Origin: Marinobacter adhaerens HP15
GTDB lineage: Bacteria > Pseudomonadota > Gammaproteobacteria > Pseudomonadales > Oleiphilaceae
Direction: 5' to 3'
DNA length: 64,000 nt
Assembly (NCBI RefSeq): GCF_000166295.1
Contig: NC_017506.1
Span: 124,001 to 188,000 of the forward strand
In this document: positions 8,785-21,410 of the stretch, in pieces
How positions within the stretch are numbered: position 1 is the first letter of the stretch
Layout: each line of letters begins with the position of its first letter
Translations under genes and position numbers: made by a program
Notes under the pieces: model-generated
What the model saw: only the letters and a program-made list of their open reading frames with translations
Told to the model about the DNA's origin: nothing
The model's database searches: none

Positions 8785-9274
8785 GGGTTCTACCCCGTTA
8801 CTGCGCACCTTTCTAAAAAGAGTCCGAATTTCTTCTAGGGAGAGTCTTGGTCTATCTGTCTGAATATCCGCTTTGCGACCTCAGCCTGCATTTCGCAGAA
8901 ATTCAAGAATTGTGAGCGTCGAGAAAATATTTTGCCTTGTACCTCGCACAAGGCTGGTGTAATTTTCAAATAGTGCCTCACCGGGTCATTCGGCACACCG
9001 CCTCGTCGGGACCCATCTCTCCAGATCGCGCACCTCCGCGCACTTTTACCCAAAAGCAGATTAAACAGACCTCTTTGATAGGCCCACCCCTTTCCTGAGG
9101 GTGTTTTGCCGTGCCTGTGAGTTTCTCAGGGCAGGGCAGACCGCCTTTTGGTTTCTCCGGATCTTGTTGCTGTTTGTTCTCTGAACAACGGCACCTGATG
9201 AGCATCCTCAATTTAGCCACGAAACGGATGCGATCGCCACGGCGATTTGGCTTAACACTAGACCGGAGAAAATT
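8785..9274. other. Non-coding region at start of recombination module
   Basis: About 490 bases without a supported gene. It holds one variant of the dispersed palindromic repeat (8861-8880) and, at 9152-9277, the first copy of a structured leader (type B). The promoter of the module probably lies between them; I could not identify it with confidence. Confidence 0.5.
8861..8880 (+). repeat. Dispersed palindromic repeat, divergent copy
   Basis: TGAATATCCGCTTTGCGACC, matching the core of copies at 38898, 55798, 59489 and 60345 except in the first arm. Confidence 0.4.
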
Positions 9275-9277
9275 ATG
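9152..9277 (+). promoter_or_regulatory. Structured leader type B, copy 1 (SD-sequestering)
   Basis: Elements in order: TTTCTCCGG (9152-9160), which pairs perfectly with CCGGAGAAA (9263-9271) covering the ribosome-binding site; hairpin TTGTTC/GAACAA (9174-9188); conserved CGGCACCTGAT and GCATCCTCA; outer stem AGCCA/TGGCT (9215-9219, 9248-9252) enclosing GAAACGGA and hairpin ATCGC(CACG)GCGAT (9233-9246). The same layout with compensating base changes is at 9912-10038. No known riboswitch was recognised. Confidence 0.7.
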
Positions 9278-9565
9278 TTTACTGCAAAAGAAAAACTCTT
9301 CATTCGAAATTCTGAACTTCATGCACGATGGAGAGCAGCAATGGTAAGCGTCAACGCAAGTTCAATGGCGCCCACATCTGTCGCTCTTTGGGAATTGCTC
9401 AATAACGGCGATCTCATCCAACTGGCTATCTACCTCGTTCTCACGATCATCATTGTGAGCCTAAACGTCATCTGCGCTGGAAAAATTGCTCATTACAAGC
9501 ACTCTGTAGAGCGAATCCGAATGCGACTGGATCACCCTCCGAACAAGTCTGAAAGACTTGATTAG
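9275..9565 (+). CDS. Small membrane protein, unknown
   Basis: A 96-residue protein with one strong membrane segment (LIQLAIYLVLTIIIVSLNVICA, about residues 47-68), a basic cytoplasmic tail and no recognised domain. The ATG is preceded by GGAGAAA, which the leader can sequester. It opens the recombination module. Function is unknown. Confidence 0.65.
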   Translation: MFTAKEKLFIRNSELHARWRAAMVSVNASSMAPTSVALWELLNNGDLIQLAIYLVLTIIIVSLNVICAGKIAHYKHSVERIRMRLDHPPNKSERLD

Positions 9566-9605
9566 CGAGTAAAAATCCACCAACATTCTTAAGGAGACGC
9601 AACCT

Positions 9606-9743
9606 ATGGAGCCTTCCATGCTTATTTTTATGACTTGCTTTGTAGCCGTCGTAGTAAGCAGCGTTTTGATAGCGGCCCACATCGACTCGAAGAACGAGCA
9701 GCTATTGATTGCTGAAGTCGAACGCGAAGAGAAAAACCTCTAG
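9606..9743 (+). CDS. Very small membrane protein (45 aa)
   Basis: MEPSMLIFMTCFVAVVVSSV followed by LIAAHIDSKNEQLLIAEVEREEKNL: one N-terminal membrane helix and a short acidic tail. AAGGAGACG lies ten bases upstream of the ATG, a good ribosome-binding site. It sits in the same direction 40 bases after the previous gene. Function unknown; the call rests on the ribosome-binding site and composition only. Confidence 0.5.
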   Translation: MEPSMLIFMTCFVAVVVSSVLIAAHIDSKNEQLLIAEVEREEKNL

Positions 9744-10035
9744 GCCTACGGCCTTAACTCTGTTCGTTTTTACGAACACATCCCCGACAGACCGCATGAT
9801 CCTCAGTTGATTCTCAACTGCTAGGTTTCGTGCGTCTGTCTTTCCTTCCCTACCCCTCACGAGCATTGCGGCCTGGACCCGTATCGGATCCAGACTTGAA
9901 TGCTTTCCCTGTGATTCCTCGAATCTTGTTGCTGCAGTTCAACTGAACTCGGCACTTGATCAGCGTCCTCACCTAGCCATGAAACGGACGCGGTTGCTAC
10001 GGCAATTGGCTTAACACTCCAAAGGAATCACTCCC
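9744..10035. other. Non-coding region with hairpins and leader copy 2
   Basis: Three small hairpins follow the 45-aa gene: AGGCC(TAC)GGCCT at 9742-9754, GTTCGT/ACGAAC at about 9763-9778 and CAGTT/AACTG at about 9806-9820. The second type B leader occupies 9912-10038. Confidence 0.5.
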
Positions 10036-10038
10036 ATG
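9912..10038 (+). promoter_or_regulatory. Structured leader type B, copy 2 (SD-sequestering)
   Basis: Same order of elements as 9152-9277: TGATTCCT (9912-9919) pairs perfectly with AGGAATCA (10023-10030) at the ribosome-binding site; hairpin AGTTC/GAACT (9936-9949); CGGCACTTGAT and GCGTCCTCA; AGCCA/TGGCT (9975-9979, 10007-10011) enclosing GAAACGGA and hairpin TTGC(TACG)GCAA (9994-10005). The loop is a C(UACG)G tetraloop, a known very stable type. Stem bases differ from copy 1 in a compensating manner while single-stranded boxes are kept. Confidence 0.72.
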
Positions 10039-10272
10039 AATCGAAGTGAACACGATGCCAACAAGCATCTCTCTCAATTCGTCAACCACGTTGATGAGGT
10101 CATCCAACAGGCAATCGAAAAAGCGGACAAAGGACGTTTTGTCGTTGCCACTTCTGAGGCCGGAAATGTGCTGCTACTGCCGCACTTTAACGCCTCTCTG
10201 AGACAGGATCTGACTTGGGTCTATGACACTGAGTACGGGTATGTCTTCTCACCTGAGAAAAGGAGTGCTTGA
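10036..10272 (+). CDS. Small hypothetical protein
   Basis: A 78-residue soluble protein beginning MNRSEHDANKHLSQFVNHVD; no domain recognised. Its stop codon overlaps the next start (TGATG at 10270-10274), so the next gene is translationally coupled. Preceded by the second type B leader. Function unknown; the location upstream of ssb suggests a place in the same mRNA. Confidence 0.7.
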   Translation: MNRSEHDANKHLSQFVNHVDEVIQQAIEKADKGRFVVATSEAGNVLLLPHFNASLRQDLTWVYDTEYGYVFSPEKRSA

Positions 10273-10613
10273 TGGAACTCGTTTTGGGTCTGTCTGCAAT
10301 CCTGGTCCTGATGTTCGGTAGCAGGATTATTCTTTTCCTGGTCGATCTCGGTTTCGAAACTGGAGACCGTCTTCTCGCAGCGTGTGAACGTCGTTTGACG
10401 CTGTACACCAAAGCCTTGCTTCGAGGAATGGTCTTCGTGATTCGCTGGATTCTCCATCGATTCTACAAGCCTGAACCCGAGCAAATGACCATCCGGTCAA
10501 TCATCGATTCTCCTGCTGAACTTCAGCACATGAGAAATCAGCACCTCCTTCAATCCGGCAAGCGTGCGCCTGTCGAGATTGAATACTCTCAACCTAAGCT
10601 CAAGAGGAAATAA
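10272..10613 (+). CDS. Small membrane-associated hypothetical protein
   Basis: A 113-residue protein with an N-terminal hydrophobic helix (ELVLGLSAILVLMFGSRIILFLVDLG) and a second amphipathic segment (TKALLRGMVFVIRWILHRFY). The ATG overlaps the previous stop codon and AAAAGGAG precedes it. It ends two bases before ssb. No family recognised. Confidence 0.7.
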   Translation: MELVLGLSAILVLMFGSRIILFLVDLGFETGDRLLAACERRLTLYTKALLRGMVFVIRWILHRFYKPEPEQMTIRSIIDSPAELQHMRNQHLLQSGKRAPVEIEYSQPKLKRK

Positions 10614-10615
10614 TC

Positions 10616-11080
10616 ATGCTTAACAAAGCACAACTCATTGGCCGTCTCGGTCAAAAAGATGTTCGTTCCACCCCAAGCGGCATGCAGGTGGCTTCTTATT
10701 CAATCGCTACAACCAAGTCTCTCAAGGACAAGGATACTGGCGAATGGAAAGAGAACACCGAATGGCACCGTTGCGTCAGTTTCAACAAGACTGCTGAGCA
10801 CATCGGCATGAACGTTGAACCTGGAGATCTCTTGTTCCTTGAGGGCGAGTTGAGAACCAGGAAATGGCAAACCCAGAGCGGTGAAGATCGTTACACCACA
10901 GAAATCGTGGTCAATGACTTCCCACGCAAGCTGCCGAAGTATTTTTCCAAAAATGGTTCGCAGCAAGCCGCTCCCGCGCCACAGTCCCAACAGCAGGCTC
11001 ATACTTCACCGAGTCAGCCTGGGCATCTGGAACAGCCGCCAGTTGAAGCCTATGGCTTTGACGACGACTACCCGTTCTAG
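10616..11080 (+). CDS. ssb: Single-stranded DNA-binding protein
   Basis: A 154-residue OB-fold protein: LNKAQLIGRLGQKDVRSTPSG, then TEWHRCVSFNKTAEHIGMNVEPGDLLFLEGELRTRKWQ, a disordered Gln/Pro-rich linker and the acidic tip DDDYPF, similar to the DDDIPF tail by which SSB recruits repair proteins. It coats single-stranded DNA during recombination or conjugative replication. The gene follows its neighbour by two bases and belongs to the ssb-bet-exo block seen in SXT/R391-type elements. Confidence 0.95.
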   Translation: MLNKAQLIGRLGQKDVRSTPSGMQVASYSIATTKSLKDKDTGEWKENTEWHRCVSFNKTAEHIGMNVEPGDLLFLEGELRTRKWQTQSGEDRYTTEIVVNDFPRKLPKYFSKNGSQQAAPAPQSQQQAHTSPSQPGHLEQPPVEAYGFDDDYPF

Positions 11081-11102
11081 CGACTGGCTTTTTAACCTTT
11101 AA

Positions 11103-11167
11103 CCCGAATGGGGCTTCTACCCCAGACGGGAGAGCCCCATCTTCTCGATGGAGACAACATCATGGGG
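11103..11167 (+). promoter_or_regulatory. Structured leader type A, copy 1
   Basis: Hairpin TGGGG/CCCCA (11109-11113, 11120-11124), extended by CCCG/CGGG. A downstream strand AGCCCCAT (11133-11140) can pair either with TGGGGCT (11109-11115) or with the start region ATGGGG (11162-11167). Thus the upstream arm mimics the start codon region. The hairpin arm is shared, so this copy is more a switch than a clean pseudoknot. Confidence 0.6.
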
Positions 11168-11353
11168 TTCTCAAGGAAAGAGGTTTATTACTGGCTGGAA
11201 ACGGCAAGTGATGAACAACTTCAGGCGCACCTACGCAATTCTCAGGAAATGCTGGTGCTTCTCACCGATCGGGAACAGATCAAATCTTTGAAGTGGCTTC
11301 GCAGTCGCATCATTGAGGAAATCAACGCCCGCAAAGAAGCTAAACAGTCTTAA
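11162..11353 (+). CDS. Small hypothetical protein (63 aa)
   Basis: A 63-residue protein MGFSRKEVYYWLETASDEQL... with a charged helical composition. GGAGA lies ten bases before the ATG at 11162; an upstream ATG at 11108 would place the structured leader inside the coding region and is not favoured. Its 3' end overlaps the convergent gene at 11340-11660 by 14 bases. Function unknown; it sits between ssb and bet. Confidence 0.6.
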   Translation: MGFSRKEVYYWLETASDEQLQAHLRNSQEMLVLLTDREQIKSLKWLRSRIIEEINARKEAKQS

Positions 11354-11660
11354 ACGACCGTTTCCGCTTCATCTTCTCAATCAGAGCTTTCTGCTCTTCA
11401 TCTGACCCAAACGCGATGGATCTGATGGCCTGCCACTCAACGGTGTCCGGCTTTCCTTCCAGCATGCGGTCAGTTTCGTCTCTGAGGTAATCCATAAAGT
11501 AAGGCCTAGCGGTCTTCCTGGCCTGGATATATGCCTCATACGTCTTGATGGATGTGGGATCAATGCCGGCTTTAACCAGCAGCGGTCCTTCTTCCTCAAG
11601 ACCCACCGATGTGAACCTGAAATTGCCCTCGTCATCGACGATGTAATGGTTGGTCTGCAT
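11340..11660 (-). CDS. Hypothetical protein antisense between ssb and bet
   Basis: A 106-residue charged protein (MQTNHYIVDDEGNFRFTSVG ... ending KRKRSFKTV). It is the only supported minus-strand gene in the recombination module. The ATG at 11660 has AGGTGAGAG upstream, a fair ribosome-binding site, and the plus strand here carries no alternative gene. Its promoter must lie within or near the bet leader and the first codons of bet, so the two transcripts would overlap. No domain recognised. Confidence 0.6.
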   Translation of the reverse strand: MQTNHYIVDDEGNFRFTSVGLEEEGPLLVKAGIDPTSIKTYEAYIQARKTARPYFMDYLRDETDRMLEGKPDTVEWQAIRSIAFGSDEEQKALIEKMKRKRSFKTV

Positions 11661-11672
11661 CTCTCTCACCTC

Positions 11673-11720
11673 TCCGGGAATTATCACCCGGAATTCTTTA
11701 CGCGCAAGGACCTTTCTATG
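11673..11720 (+). promoter_or_regulatory. Structured leader type A, copy 2 (bet)
   Basis: Hairpin TCCGGG/CCCGGA (11673-11678, 11687-11692) with loop AATTATCA. Loop AATT (11679-11682) can pair with AATT at 11692-11695 just downstream. TTCTT at 11694-11698 is also complementary to the ribosome-binding site AAGGA at 11706-11710 (one G-T pair). Confidence 0.55.
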
Positions 11721-12674
11721 AATCAGGCACCTCAGGCAGTACAACCCGCTCAATGGCATCAGATCATTGAATCCTCAAAAGAGAAGTTCAACAGCTCCAG
11801 TTTGGATTTTAAACAGGAGCAAATCTTTGCGACCCAACAGTTGATGAACAACTCCTATCTGCTGGATGTGGCAAAGAAGAACCTCTCATCACTTCGGCTT
11901 GCGATGTACAACGTCGCCGCGGTCGGACTAACGCTCAATCCCAACCAGGGCCTGGCGTTTTTGGTCCCCCGTCGTCTACGCCGCAATGAAGACGCCAAGG
12001 TCATGCTCGATATTTCTTATCGGGGATTGATTGCAATTGGCGTGGAAACCGGTGCGATCCGTTGGGCCAAGGCTGAACTGGTGTACGAGAAAGACCAGTT
12101 TTCCTACAAAGGCCCCGCCGAGAAACCAGATCACGTCTGTGATCCCTTCTCAACGGATCGTGGCTCCATTCGAGGTGGTTACTGCATCGCAGAACTACCT
12201 TCCGGGGGCGTTCTGGTCGAAGCCATGTCGAAAGCTGACATGGACAAGGTTCGGGACGTTTCTGAAGCCTTTAAAAAAGGTTTTGGGCCCTGGGTCGATT
12301 GGGCTGAACAAATGATGTTGAAAAGCATCGTGAAGCGAGCCAGCAAGTGGTGGCCAATCTCGAACCCTCGCATGGCACAGGCACTCAGGATCCTCAACGA
12401 GGAGAACGGAGAAGGCCTGGCGATTCTGGCAAACCAGCACAAGCCGGTTACGCCTTCGGCGCTTCCTGCACCACCGCCAAGAGAAGAACTCTCGGCCCAA
12501 CTGCTCAACACCGTGAAAAATCTGGTGGACCGGGCAAAGAACCAAAACGCTTTTGAAGCGTGCAAAGAGGTCATGATGGAGAGGATCAAAGATCCCTCTG
12601 AGTTGGCCTACGCTCTGGACGAACTGGATAAGGCAAAGGCCCAACCAGCCCCGTCCGCTGCGGTAAATCAATAA
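11718..12674 (+). CDS. bet: Single-strand annealing recombinase, RecT/Bet family
   Basis: A 318-residue protein of the RecT/Redbeta group, which anneals complementary single strands and works with a 5'-3' exonuclease. Family segments seen include AAVGLTLNPNQGLAFLVPRR, LDISYRGLIAIGVETGAIRWAKAELVYE and KSIVKRASKWWPIS. The C-terminal third is Pro/Ala-rich and variable. The ATG at 11718 (AAGGA upstream) was chosen over an upstream ATG at 11646. It forms a recombination set with ssb and the YqaJ nuclease as in SXT/R391 elements. Confidence 0.93.
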   Translation: MNQAPQAVQPAQWHQIIESSKEKFNSSSLDFKQEQIFATQQLMNNSYLLDVAKKNLSSLRLAMYNVAAVGLTLNPNQGLAFLVPRRLRRNEDAKVMLDISYRGLIAIGVETGAIRWAKAELVYEKDQFSYKGPAEKPDHVCDPFSTDRGSIRGGYCIAELPSGGVLVEAMSKADMDKVRDVSEAFKKGFGPWVDWAEQMMLKSIVKRASKWWPISNPRMAQALRILNEENGEGLAILANQHKPVTPSALPAPPPREELSAQLLNTVKNLVDRAKNQNAFEACKEVMMERIKDPSELAYALDELDKAKAQPAPSAAVNQ

Positions 12675-12681
12675 AACCTAA

Positions 12682-12754
12682 ACCCACTTGGGGCATGGAC
12701 CCCAACACGGGTGTTCATGCCTCTTATCTCTACTCACGAGGAATAATCATGAAC
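12682..12754 (+). promoter_or_regulatory. Structured leader type A, copy 3
   Basis: Hairpin TTGGGG/CCCCAA (12688-12693, 12700-12705), with outer ACCC/GGGT. Loop GCATG (12693-12697) pairs with CATGC (12716-12720). The overlapping strand GTTCATG (12713-12719) is perfectly complementary to CATGAAC (12748-12754), which contains the start codon at 12749. Confidence 0.7.
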
Positions 12755-13042
12755 GCTCAAACTCAACCAAAGATGACGATGTTCTACTTCGATAGCCTTG
12801 AGAAGATCCGCGACTACGACTCTTTCCGAGTCAAAGCCGTTTATCTGTCTCACTCGGAACCTCAGTGCAACGACGGCCGCCCGAATTTCTATTCGGTCAT
12901 CGGCCACCTCCGGCCCGGTGTTCAATTTGAATACCCGGAATTCCCGGTCGCTGACTTTCCCTCAGAAGGCTACGCGAGGATGTTTGCAGAGCTCTGCGAA
13001 CAGTACATCAAAGACTTTCCGGCCATGAGCCAGACAGCCTAA
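12749..13042 (+). CDS. Conserved small protein between bet and exo
   Basis: A 97-residue protein (MNAQTQPKMTMFYFDSLEKI...). No domain recognised. GAGGAATAAT precedes the ATG. Its location between the annealing recombinase and the exonuclease matches the small gene found at that place in SXT/R391-type elements, so an accessory role in recombination is inferred from position only. Confidence 0.7.
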   Translation: MNAQTQPKMTMFYFDSLEKIRDYDSFRVKAVYLSHSEPQCNDGRPNFYSVIGHLRPGVQFEYPEFPVADFPSEGYARMFAELCEQYIKDFPAMSQTA

Positions 13043-13058
13043 ACACTCACTCTCTCAA

Positions 13059-13117
13059 CCCAATGGGGTAATGCACCCATTGGGCGGCATTACCCCTCTA
13101 ATGGAGATTCGTAATGC
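13059..13117 (+). promoter_or_regulatory. Structured leader type A, copy 4 (exo): clear H-type pseudoknot
   Basis: Nine-bp stem CCCAATGGG/CCCATTGGG (13059-13067, 13076-13084) with loop GTAATGCA. Loop GTAATGC (13068-13074) pairs with GCATTAC (13087-13093). The same GCATTAC is equally complementary to GTAATGC at 13111-13117, the start codon region of exo (ATG 13114). The loop is an exact 7-base copy of the start region. Confidence 0.8.
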
Positions 13118-14118
13118 CGAAAATGACTGTAGTTGACCTGAACCAACGCTCTGAAGAATGGCTGAAATGGCGAGCCCTGGGCATCACCGCAACAGACATT
13201 CCGGTGATCCTTGGACTGAGCCCCTATAAAACCCCTTGGCAACTTTGGGCTGAAAAGATCGGACGGATTAACCCGCCAGACCTTTCAGGCAACCCAAACA
13301 TCCAAAGAGGTGTTGCCCTCGAGGATAAAGCGCGTCAGTTGGCCGAAGCCCGCTACGGTGAGTTTCTGCTTCCTATGTGCGGTGAATGTGCCAAATGGGA
13401 CGTGCTTCGCGCCTCGTTTGATGGTGTGGATACACATGATCAACCCTACGAATTCAAGGCGCCTTCCAAGACTGTTTGGGATGACCTTGAGGCAAACGGA
13501 GTCGAGTCCACGGCCTTCAAGCTTTACGAAGCTCAGGTTCAGGCTCAGTTGACTGTAGCCGGCCAGAGCATCGGACGACTCATTTTCTACCGTGAAGATG
13601 GTGCGGACCAGGATTTCGAGATTCGGTTAACTCCTGAACGGGAGCATCAAATCATCGAGGCGGCCAAGCACTTTTGGCAACTGGTCCAGACTGAGCAACC
13701 CCCAGAATTGGATCCTGATCGCGACTGGTTTATCCCGGAAAGCGGTACGGAAAAATTCAAGTGGGAAGCTCATGCGGAAGCCTGGCGGATGCAACAGGAA
13801 CAGATCAAGTCTCTGAAGGACAAGCTGAAGGCTCTTGAAAAAGACCAGAAGGATGTCCAAAAGGCATTGGTTAACCTGATGGGACCTTTTCGCCATGCTG
13901 ATGTCGGCGGCGTGAAGGTCACTCGCTTCGAAAAGTCGGGATCTGTCGACTACCTCAAATACCTTCAGGAGAACTTCCCTGACCTGGATTTGAGCACCGC
14001 GCTGGAGAATTATCGCAAGCCCTCTCGCGAGGAAGTTCGGTTCACCCGTTCTGAGGATGAACTGGTCAATCGCGACGTGGGTGAGGTGATTACGCCAGTC
14101 AAAGCGGCCTACTTCTAA
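13114..14118 (+). CDS. exo: YqaJ-type viral recombinase / 5'-3' exonuclease
   Basis: A 334-residue nuclease of the lambda-exonuclease/YqaJ fold, the partner of Bet. N-terminal WLKWRALGITATDIPVILGLSPY is typical of the family. Catalytic residues visible: RG...E (65-70), D103 in SFDGVD, and E113-x-K115 in YEFKAPS. A C-terminal coiled-coil-like stretch (about 215-250) follows the nuclease domain. It resects duplex ends to leave single strands for annealing. A strong terminator follows at 14125-14169. Confidence 0.92.
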   Translation: MPKMTVVDLNQRSEEWLKWRALGITATDIPVILGLSPYKTPWQLWAEKIGRINPPDLSGNPNIQRGVALEDKARQLAEARYGEFLLPMCGECAKWDVLRASFDGVDTHDQPYEFKAPSKTVWDDLEANGVESTAFKLYEAQVQAQLTVAGQSIGRLIFYREDGADQDFEIRLTPEREHQIIEAAKHFWQLVQTEQPPELDPDRDWFIPESGTEKFKWEAHAEAWRMQQEQIKSLKDKLKALEKDQKDVQKALVNLMGPFRHADVGGVKVTRFEKSGSVDYLKYLQENFPDLDLSTALENYRKPSREEVRFTRSEDELVNRDVGEVITPVKAAYF

Positions 14119-14124
14119 ACCAGC

Positions 14125-14169
14125 AATGGCTGTTCCGGGGATTTTATCCTCGGAGCAGTTCCATTTTTT
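14125..14169 (+). terminator. Rho-independent terminator after exo
   Basis: Long hairpin with arms starting AATGGCTGTTCCGGGGAT and ending CCATT, small mismatches only, followed by a run of six T. It separates the ssb-bet-exo transcript from the downstream genes. Confidence 0.8.
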
Positions 14170-14284
14170 GTGTCTGCCTTCTCTAGTGCCCTGCAATCCA
14201 GGGTGTTACGGAAGGCGGTTACCCCACCAGGTAATCCCTTGAGCATTTTGATCGTGCTTGCACGACAAAATAAGTGTCTATACC

Positions 14285-14323
14285 GGAATTTGAAACGGAC
14301 ACGTCAGCTACGGCTGTAATTCC
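14285..14323 (+). promoter_or_regulatory. Structured leader type B, partial copy 3
   Basis: GGAATT/AATTCC outer stem (14285-14290, 14318-14323) encloses GAAACGGA (14292-14299) and hairpin CAGC(TACG)GCTG (14305-14316). Compared with copies 1 and 2 both stems have changed in a compensating manner while GAAACGGA and the tetraloop are kept. The long SD-pairing arm was not found here. Confidence 0.6.
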
Positions 14324-14344
14324 TCTCTCAAAAAATCTCACTTG

Positions 14345-14423
14345 CCAGAAGGCCATCATCACCTTCTGGTGTGTGATGCCGCTCTGGAATAAGTGAACTC
14401 TCACTGAAAAGGAGCTTTCTATG
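14345..14423 (+). promoter_or_regulatory. Structured leader type A, copy 5 (cobS-like gene)
   Basis: Stem CCAGAAGG/CCTTCTGG (14345-14352, 14362-14369) with loop CCATCATCA; CATCA in the loop pairs with TGATG (14374-14378). GCTCT at 14381-14385 can pair with GGAGC at 14411-14415, the ribosome-binding site (one G-T pair). Confidence 0.6.
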
Positions 14424-15380
14424 ACCGTTCGCGACAAGGCACTGCCAATTCGCAACACCTTCAACCTCGACGTTCCAGCTGAAGTAATCACAGCCGGTTT
14501 CGCCGATTCCACCAATCCCTACATCCCCAAGCGAAACGATTCCTACGTTTTCCGCCGGGAGACTCTGCGGGACATCCTGAACTTTCTGGATGATCCCGAC
14601 GATGATGGGCTCTACTTCTCTGGTCATTACGGAGCAGGGAAGACCACCTTGCCTTACCAAGTTGCGTCACGCCTTAACTGGCCGACGCAGAGCTTCACCG
14701 CGCACTCGCGTATGGAGTTCGATGACCTGGTAGGCACTTGGAAATTGGTTAACGGCACGATGGAGTTCGTTTACGGACCCCTTTCTGTTGCCATGCGTGA
14801 TGGTCACCTATTCATTTTGAATGAGGTCGATCGAGCTGATCCCGGTCAGCTTGCCGCTTTGCATGATGTCCTCGAAGGACACCCGTTGGTCATTGCGACA
14901 AACGGTGGCGAAGTGATTCACGCTCACCCAAACTTTCGGTTCATTGTGAACGGCAACAGCGTTGGTTCTGGCGACAGCACCGGCCTGTATCAGGGTGTAA
15001 ACCAGCTTGATATCGCCTTCCTTGACCGATTCCGGATGGTGCACGTGGACTATCCAACCGAGGACGTTGAACTGACGATCCTTGAAAAGAAGGCACCAGA
15101 CCTTCCCGAAGAGCTGCGTAAGAAGATGGTTCGCGTAGCGAATCAGATTCGGAAGCTGTTCATTGGGGGTGAGGAAACGGCGACGCCGCTGACCATCACC
15201 ATGTCCACGCGCACGCTGTGTCGCTGGGCAAAATTGGCACTGGCCTTCCGAAATGCACCAAATGCTCTGTCTTATTCGCTGAATCAGGCTTTCCTGGCTA
15301 AAGCGGAACCAGAGCAAAGGATAGCAATCGAGCGAATCGCACAGGACATCTTTGGTACCTCCTGGTCCAAAGGAGCTTGA
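14421..15380 (+). CDS. CobS/MoxR-like AAA+ ATPase
   Basis: A 319-residue AAA+ protein like the CobS subunit of cobaltochelatase and the cobS-annotated gene of SXT/R391 elements. Walker A is GHYGAGKTT (residues 68-76); the Walker B region reads LFILNEVDRAD, so the first acidic residue is Asn while the catalytic Glu is kept. Sensor-type segment FIVNGNS and a C-terminal helical lid follow. With the CobT-like VWA protein encoded at 17139 it forms the MoxR-VWA pair typical of ATP-driven remodelling systems. A role in cobalamin synthesis is unlikely here; DNA-related remodelling is inferred from context. The stop codon is three bases before the next start. Confidence 0.88.
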   Translation: MTVRDKALPIRNTFNLDVPAEVITAGFADSTNPYIPKRNDSYVFRRETLRDILNFLDDPDDDGLYFSGHYGAGKTTLPYQVASRLNWPTQSFTAHSRMEFDDLVGTWKLVNGTMEFVYGPLSVAMRDGHLFILNEVDRADPGQLAALHDVLEGHPLVIATNGGEVIHAHPNFRFIVNGNSVGSGDSTGLYQGVNQLDIAFLDRFRMVHVDYPTEDVELTILEKKAPDLPEELRKKMVRVANQIRKLFIGGEETATPLTITMSTRTLCRWAKLALAFRNAPNALSYSLNQAFLAKAEPEQRIAIERIAQDIFGTSWSKGA

Positions 15381-15382
15381 GC

Positions 15383-16123
15383 ATGAGCGACGATATCCGT
15401 GTCCTGCACTACGCCGATAAAACGTCCGATAAATATTGGGCGATAGATACGCGGCCAAACGCCAAAGGTGGTCACGATGTCTGGTATGGACGCCGTGGGA
15501 AGCCCTTGGTTTATCGTTCCTCGGATAAGGCGGATTGGAGAAGGCAGTACGAAGCGAAACTTCGCAAGGGCTACCTCAAATTCAAATCGCTGACGATCGA
15601 TCGAAGCACCAACATGGTTGTTTCGAAAAACGACCTGGAGAGCAGCATTCCAAACCAGTTTTGGTTTCGGATCTCGACTCAGGTTCCCGAAACGCAGATC
15701 GCCAGCTTCTTGGCGTCTGCACTCAACACTTTCACGGAGCAATTCCGTGATGAGGCAACCACACTGGCTTCACTACCGGTGTTCAAAAGCCTTTTAAGTG
15801 GCAGTCACAGCGGCGGCGCGGAACTTTCCGAAGGTCCGTTGGCGATTCTGCTGCTGTTTGCTCTTCGTCGGCATCTGACTGAGCAAGGCCCCTCAGCCTC
15901 GCTCTCATTTGCACCCATAGAAATTGTGGACGACGACAATACTCTCCTGACGGACAGTTTCGATGAGCTCGCAGAGCTTTACGGAACGTCCAAGGAGTTT
16001 TCGGACATGCGTCAGAGCTGTCCCCCTGCTGACTTCAGGAAATACGCCATCGCACTGGGCGCAATCGAGGCACCAATTGATTTGACGGTAATTGAGTCAA
16101 ACACAAAGGCCGCCTTTTTCTGA
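15383..16123 (+). CDS. WGR-domain-like protein in CobS/CobT cluster
   Basis: A 246-residue protein. Its first about 70 residues (KYWAIDTRPN...HDVWYGRRGKP...YEAKLRKGYLKF) resemble a WGR domain, a nucleic-acid-binding fold found in PARPs and in bacterial MolR-like proteins, with YGR in place of WGR. The remaining 170 residues are of unknown type. AAAGGAGC precedes the ATG at 15383, which follows the cobS-like stop codon immediately, so the two are coupled. A DNA-contacting role in the ATPase system is inferred. Confidence 0.75.
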   Translation: MSDDIRVLHYADKTSDKYWAIDTRPNAKGGHDVWYGRRGKPLVYRSSDKADWRRQYEAKLRKGYLKFKSLTIDRSTNMVVSKNDLESSIPNQFWFRISTQVPETQIASFLASALNTFTEQFRDEATTLASLPVFKSLLSGSHSGGAELSEGPLAILLLFALRRHLTEQGPSASLSFAPIEIVDDDNTLLTDSFDELAELYGTSKEFSDMRQSCPPADFRKYAIALGAIEAPIDLTVIESNTKAAFF

Positions 16124-16139
16124 GTCTTTCCTCGACCCC

Positions 16140-16178
16140 GGTTCTCTGAACCACAACTCACCGCCGGCCTCCGGCGGT
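16140..16178 (+). promoter_or_regulatory. Paired hairpins upstream of DUF3150 gene
   Basis: GGTTC(TCT)GAACC at about 16140-16152 and ACCGCCGG(CCT)CCGGCGGT at about 16162-16180. The loop is too short for the pseudoknot seen in the other leaders. It may be a terminator or a divergent leader. Confidence 0.4.
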
Positions 16179-16213
16179 ACACCCTCTTCTCATAATTGCT
16201 AAGGAGATAACAC

Positions 16214-17128
16214 ATGGAATTCATCCATGGGACCACCCTTGTCCATCTGAAAATGCGGTGTTGGAGCGGTGAGAAAAAAGCCTCTCGCGACAGTGATATC
16301 CGATTGGGCACAGACGGCAAAATGCCACCACAGAAACTGCTGGATTTGGGTCGAAAGAAGATTTTTCCTCCCAAAGCTCTCGATCCTTTGCTCAGTAAGC
16401 GCAAATCGGCTGAAAGGGCATGTCTGGCTGAAGGCACACGTTTCATGGGCGGATTCGCTGTACGCGATGCAGCAATTGATGACGTAGTTGCCAAACTCGA
16501 AACCGTGAAGGCCGGCTTTGAATCCGCGTTGCAGCAATTTCTCAATGATTTTGACCGCAACAAGGAGGACTGGATCGCGGAGAACGAAGAGTACGCTCAC
16601 ATCATGCGGGATCAGGTTCCTGACCGCGAAACCGTGGCGAGCGCATTCAAGTTCGAATTTAAGCTCTACAAAATGCAGCCCCTAAAAGGCTTCGAACCGG
16701 ATGAGGCAGAAATTGCCGATCAAATCCTGCACGAAGTCGGACTGAGCTGCCGTGAGATGTCCGACCGTCTTCTGGAGCGGAAACGCGCCATCGGCGGAAA
16801 GACACTTTGCAAACAACTCGACCCATTGGTGACCAAGCTGGACACCCTGAGTTTCGGCAACGGCCGGATTCTTAGGGTTCTTGGCGAATTCCGCGCGCTG
16901 CGTAGCTCCATCCCAGCGGAACGAATCGACCAGGATCATCCTGTGTTTGGCAGGGTACTGACGTTCCTCACGATGTGTTCTGACGATAAAAAGTTGGAGC
17001 GGATCGTGTCTGGAGAATTCTCGGTGACAAAACTGATTGCCGGGCTCCAGAGCGGAAACGCACAGCCCCAGGTTTCACCTTCCTCAACCTATCCAACCAC
17101 TGCATCAGCAATGGGCGCCTACTTCTAG
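16214..17128 (+). CDS. DUF3150-family protein
   Basis: A 304-residue soluble protein. The opening HLKMRCWSGEKKASRDSDIRLG followed by LPP-type and FP.KALDPL..KR segments is typical of DUF3150, a family of unknown function that repeatedly occurs beside CobS/CobT-like genes in phages and integrative elements. A central alpha-helical, charged part and a Ser/Thr-rich tail ending GAYF follow. AAGGAGATAACAC precedes the ATG. It ends 10 bases before the VWA gene. Confidence 0.8.
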   Translation: MEFIHGTTLVHLKMRCWSGEKKASRDSDIRLGTDGKMPPQKLLDLGRKKIFPPKALDPLLSKRKSAERACLAEGTRFMGGFAVRDAAIDDVVAKLETVKAGFESALQQFLNDFDRNKEDWIAENEEYAHIMRDQVPDRETVASAFKFEFKLYKMQPLKGFEPDEAEIADQILHEVGLSCREMSDRLLERKRAIGGKTLCKQLDPLVTKLDTLSFGNGRILRVLGEFRALRSSIPAERIDQDHPVFGRVLTFLTMCSDDKKLERIVSGEFSVTKLIAGLQSGNAQPQVSPSSTYPTTASAMGAYF

Positions 17129-17138
17129 GAGCGGAACT

Positions 17139-18911
17139 ATGAACCAAAGACAATCCGCTCTCGAGCGGGCATTACCAATCGTGGCAGCTGCCTATGGTGA
17201 GCAATTTGGTGTGCGCGTCGTGCTTTCGGGCTCAGACGCCATGACAGATGGCAAAACCATTGTGCTGCCTATGCTAGACAACATGAGTGAGATGAAAGAT
17301 GTGCTGTTTGGCTATCTCTCTCACGAAGCAGCTCATATTCGCGAGTCCAGTTTCGACACCTTAAAAAAGTGCCGGTCTGAAATCGAAAAGAGTATGACCA
17401 ACTTGATTGAGGACATCCGGATTGAGCGTGCTATCCAGCACGCCTTTCCCGGGACTCAGTTCACGCTGGAAGCCATGGAGAACTACATCCATGGGCGAGG
17501 CTGGACACCCGTACCAACCACGGCAGAAAGCGAGGCATCACAATTGTTTCGTTACCTCTACCACCGGTTGTATGGAGAGTTTCTGGATCGGCAGGTCTAC
17601 CAACCGCTGATTCCAGAGTCTTTGAAGGTCTTGGAGCAGACGTTTCCCAGAGGCTTCTTCGTTCGTTTGGACGGGCTGCTGGCGAAATACATGATGTCCA
17701 TGACAACCAGTGATGACGCTCTCAAGGTGGCCCGGGCCATTTTGAAAGCGTTAAAGGATGCCGAAAAAGAGGAAGAGCAGGAGCGAAAGTCCGGCCAGGA
17801 TAGTGATTCGTCACAGCCGCCTGATCCGTCACCCGACGGCCAGGGGGATTCTTCGGACCCGAACTCCAACTCAGACAGTTCCTCATCTGAGAATGGCGAC
17901 AATCAGGGGGATTCCTCTCCTGAAGCCGCTGACCAGACAGAAGGCCCGTCGGATGCGTCCGGTGAGCAATCAATGTCTGATCAGGACTCAGCTGGTGACC
18001 AGGCAGAATCGGACTCGTCTTCGGACGATTCCAGCGACGCTGGCGCAGGAGGCACCTATGAACGGGTTATGTCGGAGCAGGATATGCCGACCAATCCCGG
18101 TCAACAGCTAAAAGAAGACTTGTGCTCACAGGCCCGTGAAGACCAGTCCGGTAAATCTTTCGAGATTGATACCGGTGTGGGCCAGGACATGAGGAACGGT
18201 AACGGTGACACGAGTGAATTGCAGGCGGGCATTTTGACGTCTTCAAGCATTCGCAGCCGGTTGCTGGGACTTCTACAGGCTGAAACCCGACAGCGCCAGT
18301 GGTTGCATGACCGCGGGCGCCGCGTTGATGGCCGTCGTCTAAGCCGTTTGGCTGCAGGCGACACTCGGGTGTTCATCCAGCGAGATGAACATAAGAGGCC
18401 TGAAACCTCGGTTCATGTCCTGCTCGATACGAGTGGTTCCATGAGCCAAAGACAGGAGATTGCCAATCAGGCCACTGTGTCGTTGGCGCTGGCTATTTCC
18501 ACCATCCCGAAATGTGACATTGCGGTGTCGATGTTTCCGGGTTGTGGGGGGAGTGTCAGTCCGATGATCCATCGTGGACAGCCGGTGAGACCCAATCTTG
18601 GGCGCTTCCTGGTCAGTTCCGGCGGTGGCACACCTCTGGCTGAAGCAATGCTCTACGCGGCACGGGAACTCAGTGCCAGTCATAAACCACGTCAGGTCCT
18701 GATTGTGATTACCGACGGTTCTCCGAACAACGGTCACGCAGTCAACTACCTGCTGGATCTGATGAAACACCAGATCGACACCTATGCCATTGGTATAGGT
18801 TCAAACGCTGTGAAGTCGTATTTCGGGAATTGGACCGTCATCAACGATGTGAGGGAGCTGCAATCAGCTTTGTTTCGCATCGCCGGCAACGTCCTCGATC
18901 TCGATCCCTGA
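17139..18911 (+). CDS. CobT-like VWA-domain protein with HEXXH motif
   Basis: A 590-residue protein. Residues 1-200 contain SHEAAHIRES (H62, E63, H66), a zinc-protease-like HEXXH. Residues about 205-310 are a low-complexity Ser/Asp/Gln-rich acidic linker. The C-terminal third is a von Willebrand A domain with the metal-ion site DTSGSMS (about 428) and VITDGSPN. CobT of cobaltochelatase has the acidic linker and VWA layout. The partner is the CobS-like ATPase upstream. An HEXXH segment at the N-terminus suggests a metallopeptidase or a structural metal site; activity is unproven. GGAGCGG precedes the ATG at 17139. Confidence 0.88.
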   Translation: MNQRQSALERALPIVAAAYGEQFGVRVVLSGSDAMTDGKTIVLPMLDNMSEMKDVLFGYLSHEAAHIRESSFDTLKKCRSEIEKSMTNLIEDIRIERAIQHAFPGTQFTLEAMENYIHGRGWTPVPTTAESEASQLFRYLYHRLYGEFLDRQVYQPLIPESLKVLEQTFPRGFFVRLDGLLAKYMMSMTTSDDALKVARAILKALKDAEKEEEQERKSGQDSDSSQPPDPSPDGQGDSSDPNSNSDSSSSENGDNQGDSSPEAADQTEGPSDASGEQSMSDQDSAGDQAESDSSSDDSSDAGAGGTYERVMSEQDMPTNPGQQLKEDLCSQAREDQSGKSFEIDTGVGQDMRNGNGDTSELQAGILTSSSIRSRLLGLLQAETRQRQWLHDRGRRVDGRRLSRLAAGDTRVFIQRDEHKRPETSVHVLLDTSGSMSQRQEIANQATVSLALAISTIPKCDIAVSMFPGCGGSVSPMIHRGQPVRPNLGRFLVSSGGGTPLAEAMLYAARELSASHKPRQVLIVITDGSPNNGHAVNYLLDLMKHQIDTYAIGIGSNAVKSYFGNWTVINDVRELQSALFRIAGNVLDLDP

Positions 18912-18930
18912 CTCCACAATCTTCCAACAG

Positions 18931-18989
18931 CCCACGCGGGAACACATCTTCCCGTTGGGTTGGTGTGTTCTTCGCAAGGAGGACACATG
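18931..18989 (+). promoter_or_regulatory. Structured leader type A, copy 6
   Basis: Hairpin CGGGAA/TTCCCG (18937-18942, 18949-18954), extended by CCCA/TGGG. GAACACA across arm and loop (18940-18946) pairs with TGTGTTC (18964-18970). Alternatively TGTGTTCTTC (18964-18973) pairs along ten bases with GGAGGACACA (18978-18987), closing a GCAA tetraloop and hiding both the ribosome-binding site GGAGG and the A of the ATG. Confidence 0.78.
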
Positions 18990-19280
18990 GAAACCTCTCG
19001 GAAACCGGACTTCTGTGAGCCTTCGGGCCCACTACAGGAGATCCCCGAATCAGCCTTCGCAGATATTCGTGAACGGCTTCTAATCGAGTCAGTAAAAAGC
19101 GCCTTTGGCATCCGTCAGCACGGTGGTGTTCGCAAACCGTGCGATGAAGCCTGGGAGTGGATTCTGTCCGAAAACCGGGAAATGCCCTTCTCATTTGCAG
19201 CTTGCTGCAGGGAGTGGGGTGTGGATCCGGAAACAATGGTCGAGTGGCTGCGGTACTACCGCAAGAAGATGCTCGGCTAA
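18987..19280 (+). CDS. Small hypothetical protein after VWA gene
   Basis: A 97-residue protein with no recognised domain. The C-terminal part (DEAWEWILSENREMPFSFAACCREWGVDPETMVEWLRYYRKKM) looks like a helix-turn-helix-type helical bundle and resembles small ICE-encoded proteins seen beside cobT-like genes. GGAGG precedes the ATG and can be hidden by the leader hairpin. Function unknown. Confidence 0.65.
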   Translation: METSRKPDFCEPSGPLQEIPESAFADIRERLLIESVKSAFGIRQHGGVRKPCDEAWEWILSENREMPFSFAACCREWGVDPETMVEWLRYYRKKMLG

Positions 19281-19299
19281 GAAAAGACCTCAACCCTCT

Positions 19300-19364
19300 A
19301 AGGGACACACTCTGTCCCTTGGGGCTGGTGTGTTCCCTCAATACTCAAAAGGAAACGCACCATG
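19300..19364 (+). promoter_or_regulatory. Structured leader type A, copy 7
   Basis: Stem AAGGGACA/TGTCCCTT (19300-19307, 19313-19320). ACACAC (19305-19310) pairs with GTGTGT (19328-19333). The overlapping strand GGTGTGTTCC (19327-19336) is complementary, with one bulge and one G-T pair, to GGAAACGCACC (19351-19361), that is the ribosome-binding site through to the base before ATG. Confidence 0.7.
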
Positions 19365-19529
19365 TCTCAACAACCTCAACTCTCGATTGAGCACGGCCTG
19401 ACCACGCGGAACGGCAAGCCAATCCGACTCATGACGATCTATGAGCCCCAGAAAACCACCGAATTGTTTTTCCAACAGTTCGGGAATACCTGGGTGCAAT
19501 ACAAAAGAGTCGTTCTGACGCTTCACTGA
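19362..19529 (+). CDS. Small hypothetical protein (55 aa)
   Basis: MSQQPQLSIEHGLTTRNGKP and on to VLTLH, 55 residues, no recognised domain. AAAGGAAAC precedes the ATG. Supported mainly by its position downstream of a leader of the same architecture as its neighbours and by the ribosome-binding site. It resembles the opening of small proteins with an N-terminal strand-rich fold, but nothing firm can be said. Confidence 0.5.
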   Translation: MSQQPQLSIEHGLTTRNGKPIRLMTIYEPQKTTELFFQQFGNTWVQYKRVVLTLH

Positions 19530-19533
19530 TGAC

Positions 19534-19555
19534 TGAAAGGGCCCCGGCCCTTTCT
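19534..19555 (+). terminator. Strong hairpin before primase gene
   Basis: Perfect 9-bp stem GAAAGGGCC/GGCCCTTTC with a two-base loop at about 19535-19554, then a second small hairpin CACTGC/GCAGTG. A T run is lacking, so it may be a pause or leader element rather than a terminator. Confidence 0.4.
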
Positions 19556-19607
19556 TACTCACTGCTCGGCAGTGTCCCTTGAAAAGTTCACTGTCTGGAG
19601 GAGAACC

Positions 19608-20687
19608 ATGGAAAAACGAAACTCAACTGCTCTGAAACGTCGCATGGAAGGACGTTGGCTCAGTGCTTTCCTTGCACTGGCGCCAGCCCTCGAAACTGCG
19701 GTCAATAAGCTTGGCAAAAATGTGCCTTGTCCCGTTGACGGTGGTACCGATGGCTTCCGGCTGTTTCGTGACGCCAACACCACTGGTGGCGGCGTAAAAC
19801 AGGCTTGGCGAGTGATCCCCGAAGGCATCGACATGCTGATGTGGGTGAACGATTGGTCATTCACCAAGACCTACGACGAACTTGAAGCCTTTTTGGGCGG
19901 AAGGATCGTGGACGCCAAACCTATCAGGACGCCCAAGACTCAGATCCAGGACGATTCAAAGCTTCGGCTTTGGCTTAACCAGATCTGGGGGGATGCTCTG
20001 CCACTGAACGACCTGCGATCGTACCCGGCGAGAGCCTATTTCGAACGCAGAAGTCTACGCACAGCAGCGATGCTCGCCGATGACCTGCGGTTCCATCCGT
20101 CACTCAACTACGTTGGTGTCGACGGTCAAACGCTGGGTCAGTACGGCACGATCCTCGGTCTGGTCCGCAATAATGCGGGTGAACCAGTCTCGATTCATCG
20201 GACGTTCATCACCAAAAGTGGGCTGAAGGTCGAGTTTTCCGACGGCAAGAACAAGTCGCGAAAACTCACGCCGGCGGTCAACAAAGAAAGCCGCGGACGC
20301 CAGATTCGCGTGAACCCGGTGAAAGGAACCGTTATGGGTGTCGCAGAAGGACTGGAAACAGCTCTTGCGGTAACACTCATGACGCAGCTGCCAGTGTGGC
20401 CAACGCTTTCGACGACCATGATGCAATCGTTTCTGCCGCCCGAATGGGTAGAAAAGGTTCTGATTTTCGTCGACAAAGATCGTAACCAAGCGGGTGAAGT
20501 CGCTGCCAACACGCTGGCCCAGAAGCTCAGTCTTCTAGGCCTGGATGTTCAGCTGATTTTGCCATCAATTCCGATGCTCGAATCGGATTCAAAAGGTGTG
20601 GACTGGGCGGACCAGTTGAAGCGTGACCCTTCTGGTTTTAGCCAGATTGGAAACCTATTAAGGGACCGTCCACGACAGACAGCTTAA
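19608..20687 (+). CDS. Toprim-domain DNA primase-like protein
   Basis: A 359-residue protein like plasmid and ICE primases. The N-terminal part (VPCPVDGGTDGFRLF and GGGVKQ) is a degraded zinc-finger-type region. The C-terminal Toprim domain shows VAEGLETALAV (about 244-254, catalytic Glu) and LIFVDKDRNQAG (about 283-294, the DxD pair). It probably primes replication of the element or its transferred strand. GGAGGAG precedes the ATG at 19608; an upstream start at 19572 is less likely. Confidence 0.85.
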   Translation: MEKRNSTALKRRMEGRWLSAFLALAPALETAVNKLGKNVPCPVDGGTDGFRLFRDANTTGGGVKQAWRVIPEGIDMLMWVNDWSFTKTYDELEAFLGGRIVDAKPIRTPKTQIQDDSKLRLWLNQIWGDALPLNDLRSYPARAYFERRSLRTAAMLADDLRFHPSLNYVGVDGQTLGQYGTILGLVRNNAGEPVSIHRTFITKSGLKVEFSDGKNKSRKLTPAVNKESRGRQIRVNPVKGTVMGVAEGLETALAVTLMTQLPVWPTLSTTMMQSFLPPEWVEKVLIFVDKDRNQAGEVAANTLAQKLSLLGLDVQLILPSIPMLESDSKGVDWADQLKRDPSGFSQIGNLLRDRPRQTA

Positions 20688-20702
20688 ACCACAAACTGCC
20701 GA

Positions 20703-20783
20703 CCTCGGAGAGCAAGCCAACCCTCTCCGGGGTCTGGCTTGTTTTCTCTGAGCGAGGTCATGCCTGGAGAGAACACACGTATG
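20703..20783 (+). promoter_or_regulatory. Structured leader type A, copy 8
   Basis: Ten-bp stem CCTCGGAGAG/CTCTCCGGGG (20703-20712, 20723-20732, one G-T pair). Loop CAAGCCA (20713-20719) pairs perfectly with TGGCTTG (20735-20741). TTCTCT (20744-20749) is complementary to AGAGAA (20768-20773) in the ribosome-binding site region, and TGT/ACA extend it. Confidence 0.75.
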
Positions 20784-21143
20784 AAATTGCTTTACCAGAA
20801 ACTCAACAAACTACGGACGCAGGATCTGATCATTCAGAAAATGCGCTACCGGCGAAGCACCAGGTTGGTGGGCAGTCTGAAAACGATGGCCTACGCTGCC
20901 TCAGCTTTAATGGCCGGACACCTGTTCCAAACCTTTGCCGATGGACTGGAACTTACCAGTTTTGACGCAATCGCAATGGTTCTAGTGATGTGGTTGCTCG
21001 CCATCATTCTCATGTTAGAAGTGGAAATGGCTCGCGATCTCGCAGGACATGAACTGATTCAGGATCTTTTGGTGCTGCGAAGTCAGCGGCTGAACTTGAC
21101 TGTCAGTAAGCGTTCCGCTCCAATGAAACGAGGTAAACAGTGA
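20781..21143 (+). CDS. Membrane protein, unknown
   Basis: A 120-residue protein with a basic N-terminus (KLLYQKLNKLRTQDLIIQKM), two membrane segments (MAYAASALMAGHLFQTFA and FDAIAMVLVMWLLAIILMLEVEM) and a basic tail. GGAGAG lies nine bases before the ATG. Its stop codon overlaps the next start (TGATG). No family recognised. Confidence 0.65.
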   Translation: MKLLYQKLNKLRTQDLIIQKMRYRRSTRLVGSLKTMAYAASALMAGHLFQTFADGLELTSFDAIAMVLVMWLLAIILMLEVEMARDLAGHELIQDLLVLRSQRLNLTVSKRSAPMKRGKQ

Positions 21144-21295
21144 TGGGCAATGCCATGTCAGTTTTTCTCATGTTTGGAATCGTCCTTACCCTGGTAGGCA
21201 CAGTCGGTACCGGCTTCGTGGTCTATCAGCGCCGCCTTCAGTGGCAAGAGATTTGTCGCCTGGCGGATCAACAAGACTGTCGAAAATCGAAATAG
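21143..21295 (+). CDS. Very small membrane protein (50 aa)
   Basis: MGNAMSVFLMFGIVLTLVGT followed by a basic tail RRLQWQEICRLADQQDCRKSK. One membrane helix. The ATG overlaps the stop of the previous gene and a terminator follows directly, which supports it as the last gene of the operon. Confidence 0.55.
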   Translation: MGNAMSVFLMFGIVLTLVGTVGTGFVVYQRRLQWQEICRLADQQDCRKSK

Positions 21296-21301
21296 ACCCA
21301 C

Positions 21302-21330
21302 AAAACCCGCTTCGGCGGGTTTTCTATTTT
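21302..21330 (+). terminator. Rho-independent terminator closing the recombination module
   Basis: AAAACCCGC(TTCG)GCGGGTTTT: a perfect GC stem with UUCG tetraloop, flanked by T-rich sequence TTTTCTATTTT. Confidence 0.85.
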
Positions 21331-21410
21331 GGCAGGCGGGTTCTGACTAAGAAACTCTTTAACCGCCTACGGTATCTGATTTTAAGAAACGCAGGCACGC
21401 ATGCAAGAAC

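Follow-up and report, generated by a model that had tools for sequence, protein, structure and literature searches.

SXT/R391 elements and IncA/C plasmids are treated mainly at the transcriptional level in the passages of PMC4542580 and PMC4344509 on which we draw, and in the text of the latter the terms "attenuat", "leader", "hairpin" and "secondary structure" do not occur. The review PMC4542580 does report, in a passage based on a 2013 study, a translational attenuator upstream of bet in SXT, where expression is hindered at translation, and the same passage places the bet attenuator in IncA/C plasmids as well. According to passages of PMC535899, the leaders targeted by gp32 in T4 and RB69 have diverged in sequence yet are similar in structure, and either protein represses them. 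Two further RNAs come close in their setting, namely the radC RNA motif (RF01754), described from Proteobacteria in the part of Weinberg et al. 2010 that we cite, and the STAXI motif, described as a pseudoknot that comes in tandem arrays of two or three copies (Weinberg et al. 2010). Here, we describe a family of gene leaders in the recombination module of an element of Marinobacter adhaerens HP15 and compare it with these systems. The window, that is the whole stretch analysed, comprises 64,000 nucleotides (nt; positions 124,001 to 188,000 of the forward strand of contig NC_017506.1) within a 4.42-Mb contig of a 4.65-Mb genome.

The leaders lie in one operon, in which orfA and orfB are open reading frames (ORFs) of 63 and 97 amino acids, orfD and orfE are small ORFs, exo is a YqaJ-type exonuclease and the primase is of the toprim/zinc-ribbon type:

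10616..21143, + strand, operon bearing the switches: ssb, orfA, recT, orfB, exo (YqaJ), CobS/CbbQ-like AAA, orfC, DUF3150, CobT-like VWA, orfD, orfE, primase/toprim, orfF

A sequence-only reading of this stretch had proposed eight structured leaders, each with a strand that could bind a hairpin loop or, alternatively, the start of the gene. We parsed each leader into a hairpin P2, its loop segment L, a strand X and the start region Y, with P1 denoting an outer CCC/GGG helix, and scored the loop:X and X:start helices jointly under the demand that they share X (the triple score), against 400 dinucleotide shuffles per leader. In six of the eight leaders X is complementary both to the P2 loop and to the start region, to a degree reached by at most one shuffle in 400: none for orfA (start 11162), orfB (12749), exo (13114), orfD (18987) and orfF (20781), and one for orfE (19362). 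Their parts are as follows:

11103..11172, + strand, orfA switch: P1 11103-11105/11128-11130; P2 11109-11113/11120-11124; L 11110-11116; X 11130-11140; Y 11162-11172
12683..12758, + strand, orfB switch: P1 12683-12685/12709-12711; P2 12688-12693/12700-12705; L 12690-12699; X 12709-12723; Y 12748-12758
13059..13119, + strand, exo switch: P2 (with P1) 13059-13067/13076-13084; L 13065-13074; X 13085-13096; Y 13111-13119
18931..18988, + strand, orfD switch: P2 18936-18942/18949-18955; L 18939-18948; X 18962-18971; Y 18982-18988
19294..19362, + strand, orfE switch: P2 19296-19307/19313-19324; L 19304-19311; X 19326-19334; Y 19354-19362
20701..20775, + strand, orfF switch: P2 20701-20712/20723-20734; L 20713-20719 (20707-20719 in the triple scoring, extending into the P2 5' arm); X 20735-20749; Y 20766-20775

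The copies stand one per gene and not in tandem. The resemblance of loop and start can be read directly from the letters: in orfA the loop AATGGGGCTTC resembles the start ATGGGGTTC, in exo the loop is GGGGTAATGCA and the start CGTAATGCC, and in orfD ACACAT occurs both in the loop and at the start. Across 163 leaders, Y covers the Shine-Dalgarno (SD) zone or the AUG in 143, the search for Y being confined to -20 to +12. About half of the genes of the operon seem to have translation switches of their own.

Because GC-rich sequence often satisfies the triple descriptor by itself, specificity was assessed by a partner-swap test, in which the hairpin was picked by energy alone and partners were exchanged between leaders of one element, keeping composition. 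The energy-chosen orfB hairpin differs from the P2 given above, and therefore the test is not tuned to the helices of the sequence-only reading; where another hairpin is taken, as in orfB and some other leaders, the test is weakened. In ten elements, with 105 of 107 leaders usable (two were dropped for want of a hairpin), true partners paired better than exchanged ones, with z scores of -9.0 for loop:X and -12.6 for X:start and 0 of 5,000 permutations as good for each. The claim that the loop mimics the start is borne out in the same set, loop and start being more similar than expected (z 5.5, 0 of 5,000). Some of the ten elements are close relatives, so six were run singly (the window, L016, L018, L020, L021 and L119), and all show a preference for their own partners: between 0 and 8 of 5,000 permutations for X:start and between 0 and 4 for loop:X, except in L018 (99) and L119 (108). 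The window alone, with 11 usable leaders, gives z -3.6 for loop:X and -4.5 for X:start, each with 0 of 5,000 permutations.

The plan recurs more widely, in relatives. A collection of 840 leaders from 92 loci was reduced to a non-redundant set of 230 leaders from 46 loci, and the 225 usable ones gave z -8.6 for loop:X and -12.9 for X:start. The true partner outdid 95% or more of its foreign rivals in 65 of the 225 for loop:X and in 69 for X:start. In the IncA/C plasmid pRA1, all 26 leaders of the module (73.7-99.6 kb) were usable and show the preference as a set (z -6.5, -7.2 and, for loop-start similarity, 4.6), and no partner preference was found in the 51 usable of 55 pRA1 leaders outside the module, nor in the 117 usable of 128 chromosomal leaders from 200 kb of the window's chromosome, where genes were predicted with a basic ORF script. 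A triple score of -25 or better is reached by 16 of 81 pRA1 leaders, 6 of 128 chromosomal leaders and 35 of 1,045 shuffles; by our reading of the list all 16 lie inside the module, and by our count 20 of its 26 leaders reach -18.

Two scans were rejected as genome annotation tools for being too unselective: a pseudoknot energy scan of the window, which returned 296 sites on one strand and 295 on the other, and a search for triple helices at every possible start, with 415 matches versus 268.7 in shuffles. Adding an ACCC/GGG rule to the latter left 6 matches versus 1.0 in shuffles, 2 of the 6 being named switches. A phage search with the orfA leader gave no matches.

Compensatory change is clearest in the leaders of the cobS/DUF3150 set (14 leaders from eight elements), where 95.5% of the loop:X cells are paired, five cells are double-changed and no shuffle in 500 has as high a covariation score. 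Joint changes of all three segments also occur: in two rows loop G, X C and start G become A, U and A, and in one row loop C, X G and start C become U, A and U. The X:Y pairing of this set stands at 94 versus 89.95 when permuted (11 of 2,000), the Y register being chosen per sequence in both. Together with the swap tests, these changes uphold the earlier claim that pairing is kept while sequence changes.

The two helices also compete for the same bases, as the idea of one strand with two exclusive folds demands. The shared fraction of X is 0.64 versus 0.47 expected in 70 leaders and 0.58 versus 0.44 in 132 non-redundant ones, and in 37 chromosomal leaders it is 0.30 versus 0.26; loop:X and X:Y share bases above expectation and therefore tend to exclude each other. 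When X is blocked in nested folding of 163 leaders, mean openness of the start rises from 0.36 to 0.52, versus 0.38 when other blocks are placed, and the gain exceeds 0.2 in 72 of the 163 (1 of 163 with other blocks). In the chromosomal control of 30 leaders, blocking X moves openness from 0.41 to 0.44, with a gain above 0.2 in 3.

The leaders carry three complementary segments whose match is leader-specific, covary in one ortholog set and, among the leaders sampled, are restricted to the module. We consider it likely that they form a family of cis-acting translational switches, one per switched gene, in the recombination module of the window element and of related conjugative elements. The P2 loop and upper 5' arm, lying just upstream of X and imitating Y, would be a decoy. 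Where X pairs with Y and covers the SD, the AUG or both, the ribosome could not bind and the gene would be off; where X pairs with the decoy instead, as an H-type pseudoknot or a longer 5'-arm:X helix, Y would be free and the gene on. In the mode that seems most likely to us, X would meet the decoy first during transcription, leaving the young message open, and a leader not promptly loaded with ribosomes would relax towards X:Y, attenuating the expression of heavily transcribed genes. The assignment of the on and off states and the action on translation are inferred, with support from the attenuator that the passage in the review reports for SXT bet: the opening of the start when X is blocked and that report together fit X:Y as the off state.

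Several results weigh against this reading. Two of the eight leaders first proposed do not carry the plan:

11673..11697, + strand, recT leader hairpin: weak 5-bp loop helix; start pairing unsupported
14344..14378, + strand, cobS leader hairpin: loop helix of 6 bp; weak start pairing of 4 bp

For recT (start 11718), the 5-bp loop helix and a 4-bp start helix are equalled by 193 of 400 shuffles; this leader is not an intercistronic one, because a divergent gene precedes recT in relatives. For cobS (start 14421) no triple was found, and the 6-bp loop and 4-bp start helices come from a separate parse in which X need not be shared. Blocking X in the six window leaders raises openness from 0.40 to 0.59, with a gain above 0.2 in just two of them. 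Under a pseudoknot penalty that is our own assumption, rough energies of the two states differ by a median of 1.0 kcal/mol, close to balance, and favour X:Y in 73 of 163 leaders. With P1 closed, some leaders leave little linker before X (2 nt in exo), and a full pseudoknot would there need P1 to open. In the non-redundant set the true partner beats at least 80% of foreign ones in 113 of 225 leaders for loop:X and 128 for X:start, so about half fail, and L077, L078, L080 and L090 show little sign of partner preference. The descriptor alone is unspecific, a triple score of -18 or better being reached by 31 of 81 pRA1 leaders, 30 of 128 chromosomal ones and 236 of 1,045 shuffles. Covariation is only mild in the orfA set of ten leaders, with two double-changed loop:X pairs (58 of 500 shuffles) and a score reached by 20 of 500; its X:Y covariation is not above shuffles (294 of 500), a register shifted by one being equally good. 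The exo set of seven leaders is 98.6% paired in loop:X yet nearly invariant, with no double changes.

Genes without a leader of this kind had been described as mostly abutting their predecessors, which holds for orfC (gap 2) and cobT (gap 10) but not for DUF3150 (gap 90) or the primase (gap 78), where other hairpins are present in the window and no triple was found. The primase leader (19530-19607) has two hairpins, and the bases preceding the SD (CACTGTCTGGAGG) recur in one of the hairpin arms (CACTG) instead of in a loop; this may be a decoy-arm variant of the switch. By eye, some loci have the module and no switch, namely L053 and L072 before bet and cobS and L077 before the five genes listed for it, and a comparison with these three could help to show which factor accompanies the switches.

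What might set such switches, and whether simpler structures would account for the same data, can be weighed from the leaders themselves. A CCC-P2-GGG frame is found in 134 of 256 module leaders versus 5 of 128 chromosomal ones, with an A at -1 before the CCC in 71% of framed leaders; since the frame search itself demanded CCC and GGG, only the flanking A's count as independent evidence. A common P1 frame beside variable loops is what protein-controlled operators might look like, with one trans-acting protein of the element or the host binding the AACCC-P2-GGG frame or the pseudoknot and stabilising one state, so that the switched genes would be one post-transcriptional regulon. Passages on the gp32 leader targets of T4 and RB69 (PMC535899) offer a precedent, no candidate protein was found here, and we regard this explanation as possible but doubtful. 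An SSB encoded by the element is unlikely to be the common factor: pRA1 has no match to the ssb of the window or of R997 (tblastn, E 1e-3), yet its 26 module leaders pair as a set. The element's SSB as a gp32-type repressor was set aside on this ground; a host SSB could still act in that way. We advance only tentatively a broader view, in which the leaders would form an element-wide post-transcriptional regulon of gene-specific decoy-loop switches with a common AACCC-P2-GGG frame, read by a single factor or cellular state that opens the whole recombination programme.

A translational relay seems unlikely as the trigger. Here the ribosome ending the upstream gene would open P1 and let X pair with the decoy, making the translation of each gene depend on that of the one before it. 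The spacing is suggestive, since in the six confirmed leaders of the window a stop codon lies 8 to 22 nt before P1 or P2, within the 8 to 25 bases noted earlier, and the median is 16.5 nt in the 84 leaders with a gene end within 110 nt. However, 50 of 134 framed leaders have no upstream gene end within 110 nt, an SD-preceded small ORF ends within 25 nt of P1 in just 3 of those 50, and stop codons just before the CCC are hardly enriched (33 of 118 versus 28.6 expected), which argues against the terminating ribosome as the general trigger that had been suggested. It is also quite improbable that the leaders are plain SD-sequestering hairpins whose loops match only because they are G-rich and stand opposite an anti-SD strand rich in C. 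The X:start signal is indeed stronger than that of loop:X, and G-rich P2 5' arms and C-rich X strands are common, but loop:X partners remain leader-specific after swapping within elements and covary in the cobS/DUF3150 set (0 of 500 shuffles). Transcription attenuators, with the 5'-arm:X helix and a U-run as terminator, are very improbable: at least five U within 11 nt after X occur in 13 of 163 leaders and are absent from the other 150, and the terminator reading was rejected on this rarity.

A second structured element lies upstream of the cobS leader, with two further copies in the window:

14244-14326, + strand, element B, upstream of the cobS leader
9922-10015 and 9166-9255, + strand, element B copies, ahead of ATG 10036 and ATG 9275

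It has a stem GURUC/GRYAC and a loop segment that pairs downstream past a small UACG hairpin, forming a pseudoknot. A model built from seven sequences matched 20 times with E of at most 0.01, in 10 of the 46 sources searched, with no matches in R997 or pRA1. The pseudoknot was not part of the search model and was counted afterwards; with it included, 14 of 15 pairs show double changes, 90.1% of cells are paired (67.1% in shuffles) and the covariation score is 0.70 versus 0.26 in shuffles (0 of 500). Taken by itself, the pseudoknot helix is paired in 75.4% of cells, and 6 of its 6 pairs show double changes. No Rfam model matched element B over threshold in the window, and a permissive search of window positions 8800-10400 gave none. 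Among 194 genomes of the order, element B was found in 3, each of which also has a match to the window RecT. It may be part of the same control as the leader switches, and we guess that an element so placed could act in antitermination or as a sensor. Just before element B and cobS, and after exo, a strong hairpin resembling an intrinsic terminator (14128-14160) suggests a break between two transcription units. In IncA/C-type elements, a block with AGCTGG and AAACAAACAGC stands upstream of long leaders at seven sites of L131 (pRA1 50001-100000) and may be a small pseudoknot, analogous to element B:

pRA1 73669, 74718, 79041, 83461, 87862, 91642 and 97051 (record positions): AGCTGG/AAACAAACAGC block

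The relationships of the module can be read from its CbbQ/CobS-like ATPase, whose close relatives are in Marinobacter genomes and plasmids (99%), followed by plasmids of M. nauticus, M. shengliensis, Vibrio tubiashii and Microbulbifer (81-86%), SXT/R391-like elements (59%) and IncA/C plasmids (54%). L025 and L029, from bins labelled Rhodopirellula and Dehalococcoidia, carry module ATPases 99% and 82% identical to that of the Marinobacter-type window, which suggests that these contigs are misbinned. No PHROGs family was obtained for seven proteins of the operon.

Taken as translational switches, the leaders point to a gene-by-gene RNA layer over the recombination module of SXT/R391 and IncA/C elements, matched by no Rfam 15 model in the stretches searched. 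What opens the switches can be tested with small reporters, and a decoy that copies the start is a compact natural design for RNA switches. No description of this leader family appears in titles and abstract openings among the matches listed in the literature search. At gathering thresholds, Rfam returned a single tRNA in the window and two group II intron matches, both in L021, in eight relatives, with nothing at the leaders, and permissive searches of window 10400-21400, R997 and the pRA1 module gave sub-threshold matches only. The radC RNA sits near DNA-handling genes, and an identity with it had been left open by the sequence-only reading. It is rejected here, as the radC model had no match at gathering in the window or the eight relatives, and a direct search for RF01754 in G000, pR997, pRA1 and p123 gave none of four over the cut-off; the best score in G000 (E 0.9) is at 1017980-1018142, outside the window, and none falls in the window region at E 10. 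STAXI pseudoknots likewise lie near ssb and other DNA-handling genes (Weinberg et al. 2010). They are tandem, whereas the leaders here stand one per gene, and with no Rfam STAXI match at gathering in the window or eight relatives this identity was rejected too.

The T4/RB69 gene 32 operator resembles the leaders more in what it does, being a leader pseudoknot of a replication and recombination gene whose sequence has diverged while structure and translational control are kept, in passages of PMC535899. There, the pseudoknot nucleates cooperative binding of the repressor, and those passages describe no strand shared by loop and start; we see it as a functional analogue of the putative switches. 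Closest is the SXT bet attenuator, with the same position directly upstream of bet and the same type of operon, and the R997 bet leader (L018, start 5640) fits the plan with a 5-bp loop:X and a 6-bp X:start helix. In the window, the recT leader is weak, and six sister leaders carry the plan. The passage in the review tells of an attenuator in one place, whereas here a decoy-loop design stands before many genes of the module in elements of several genera, which would explain the single attenuator reported for SXT as one of many.

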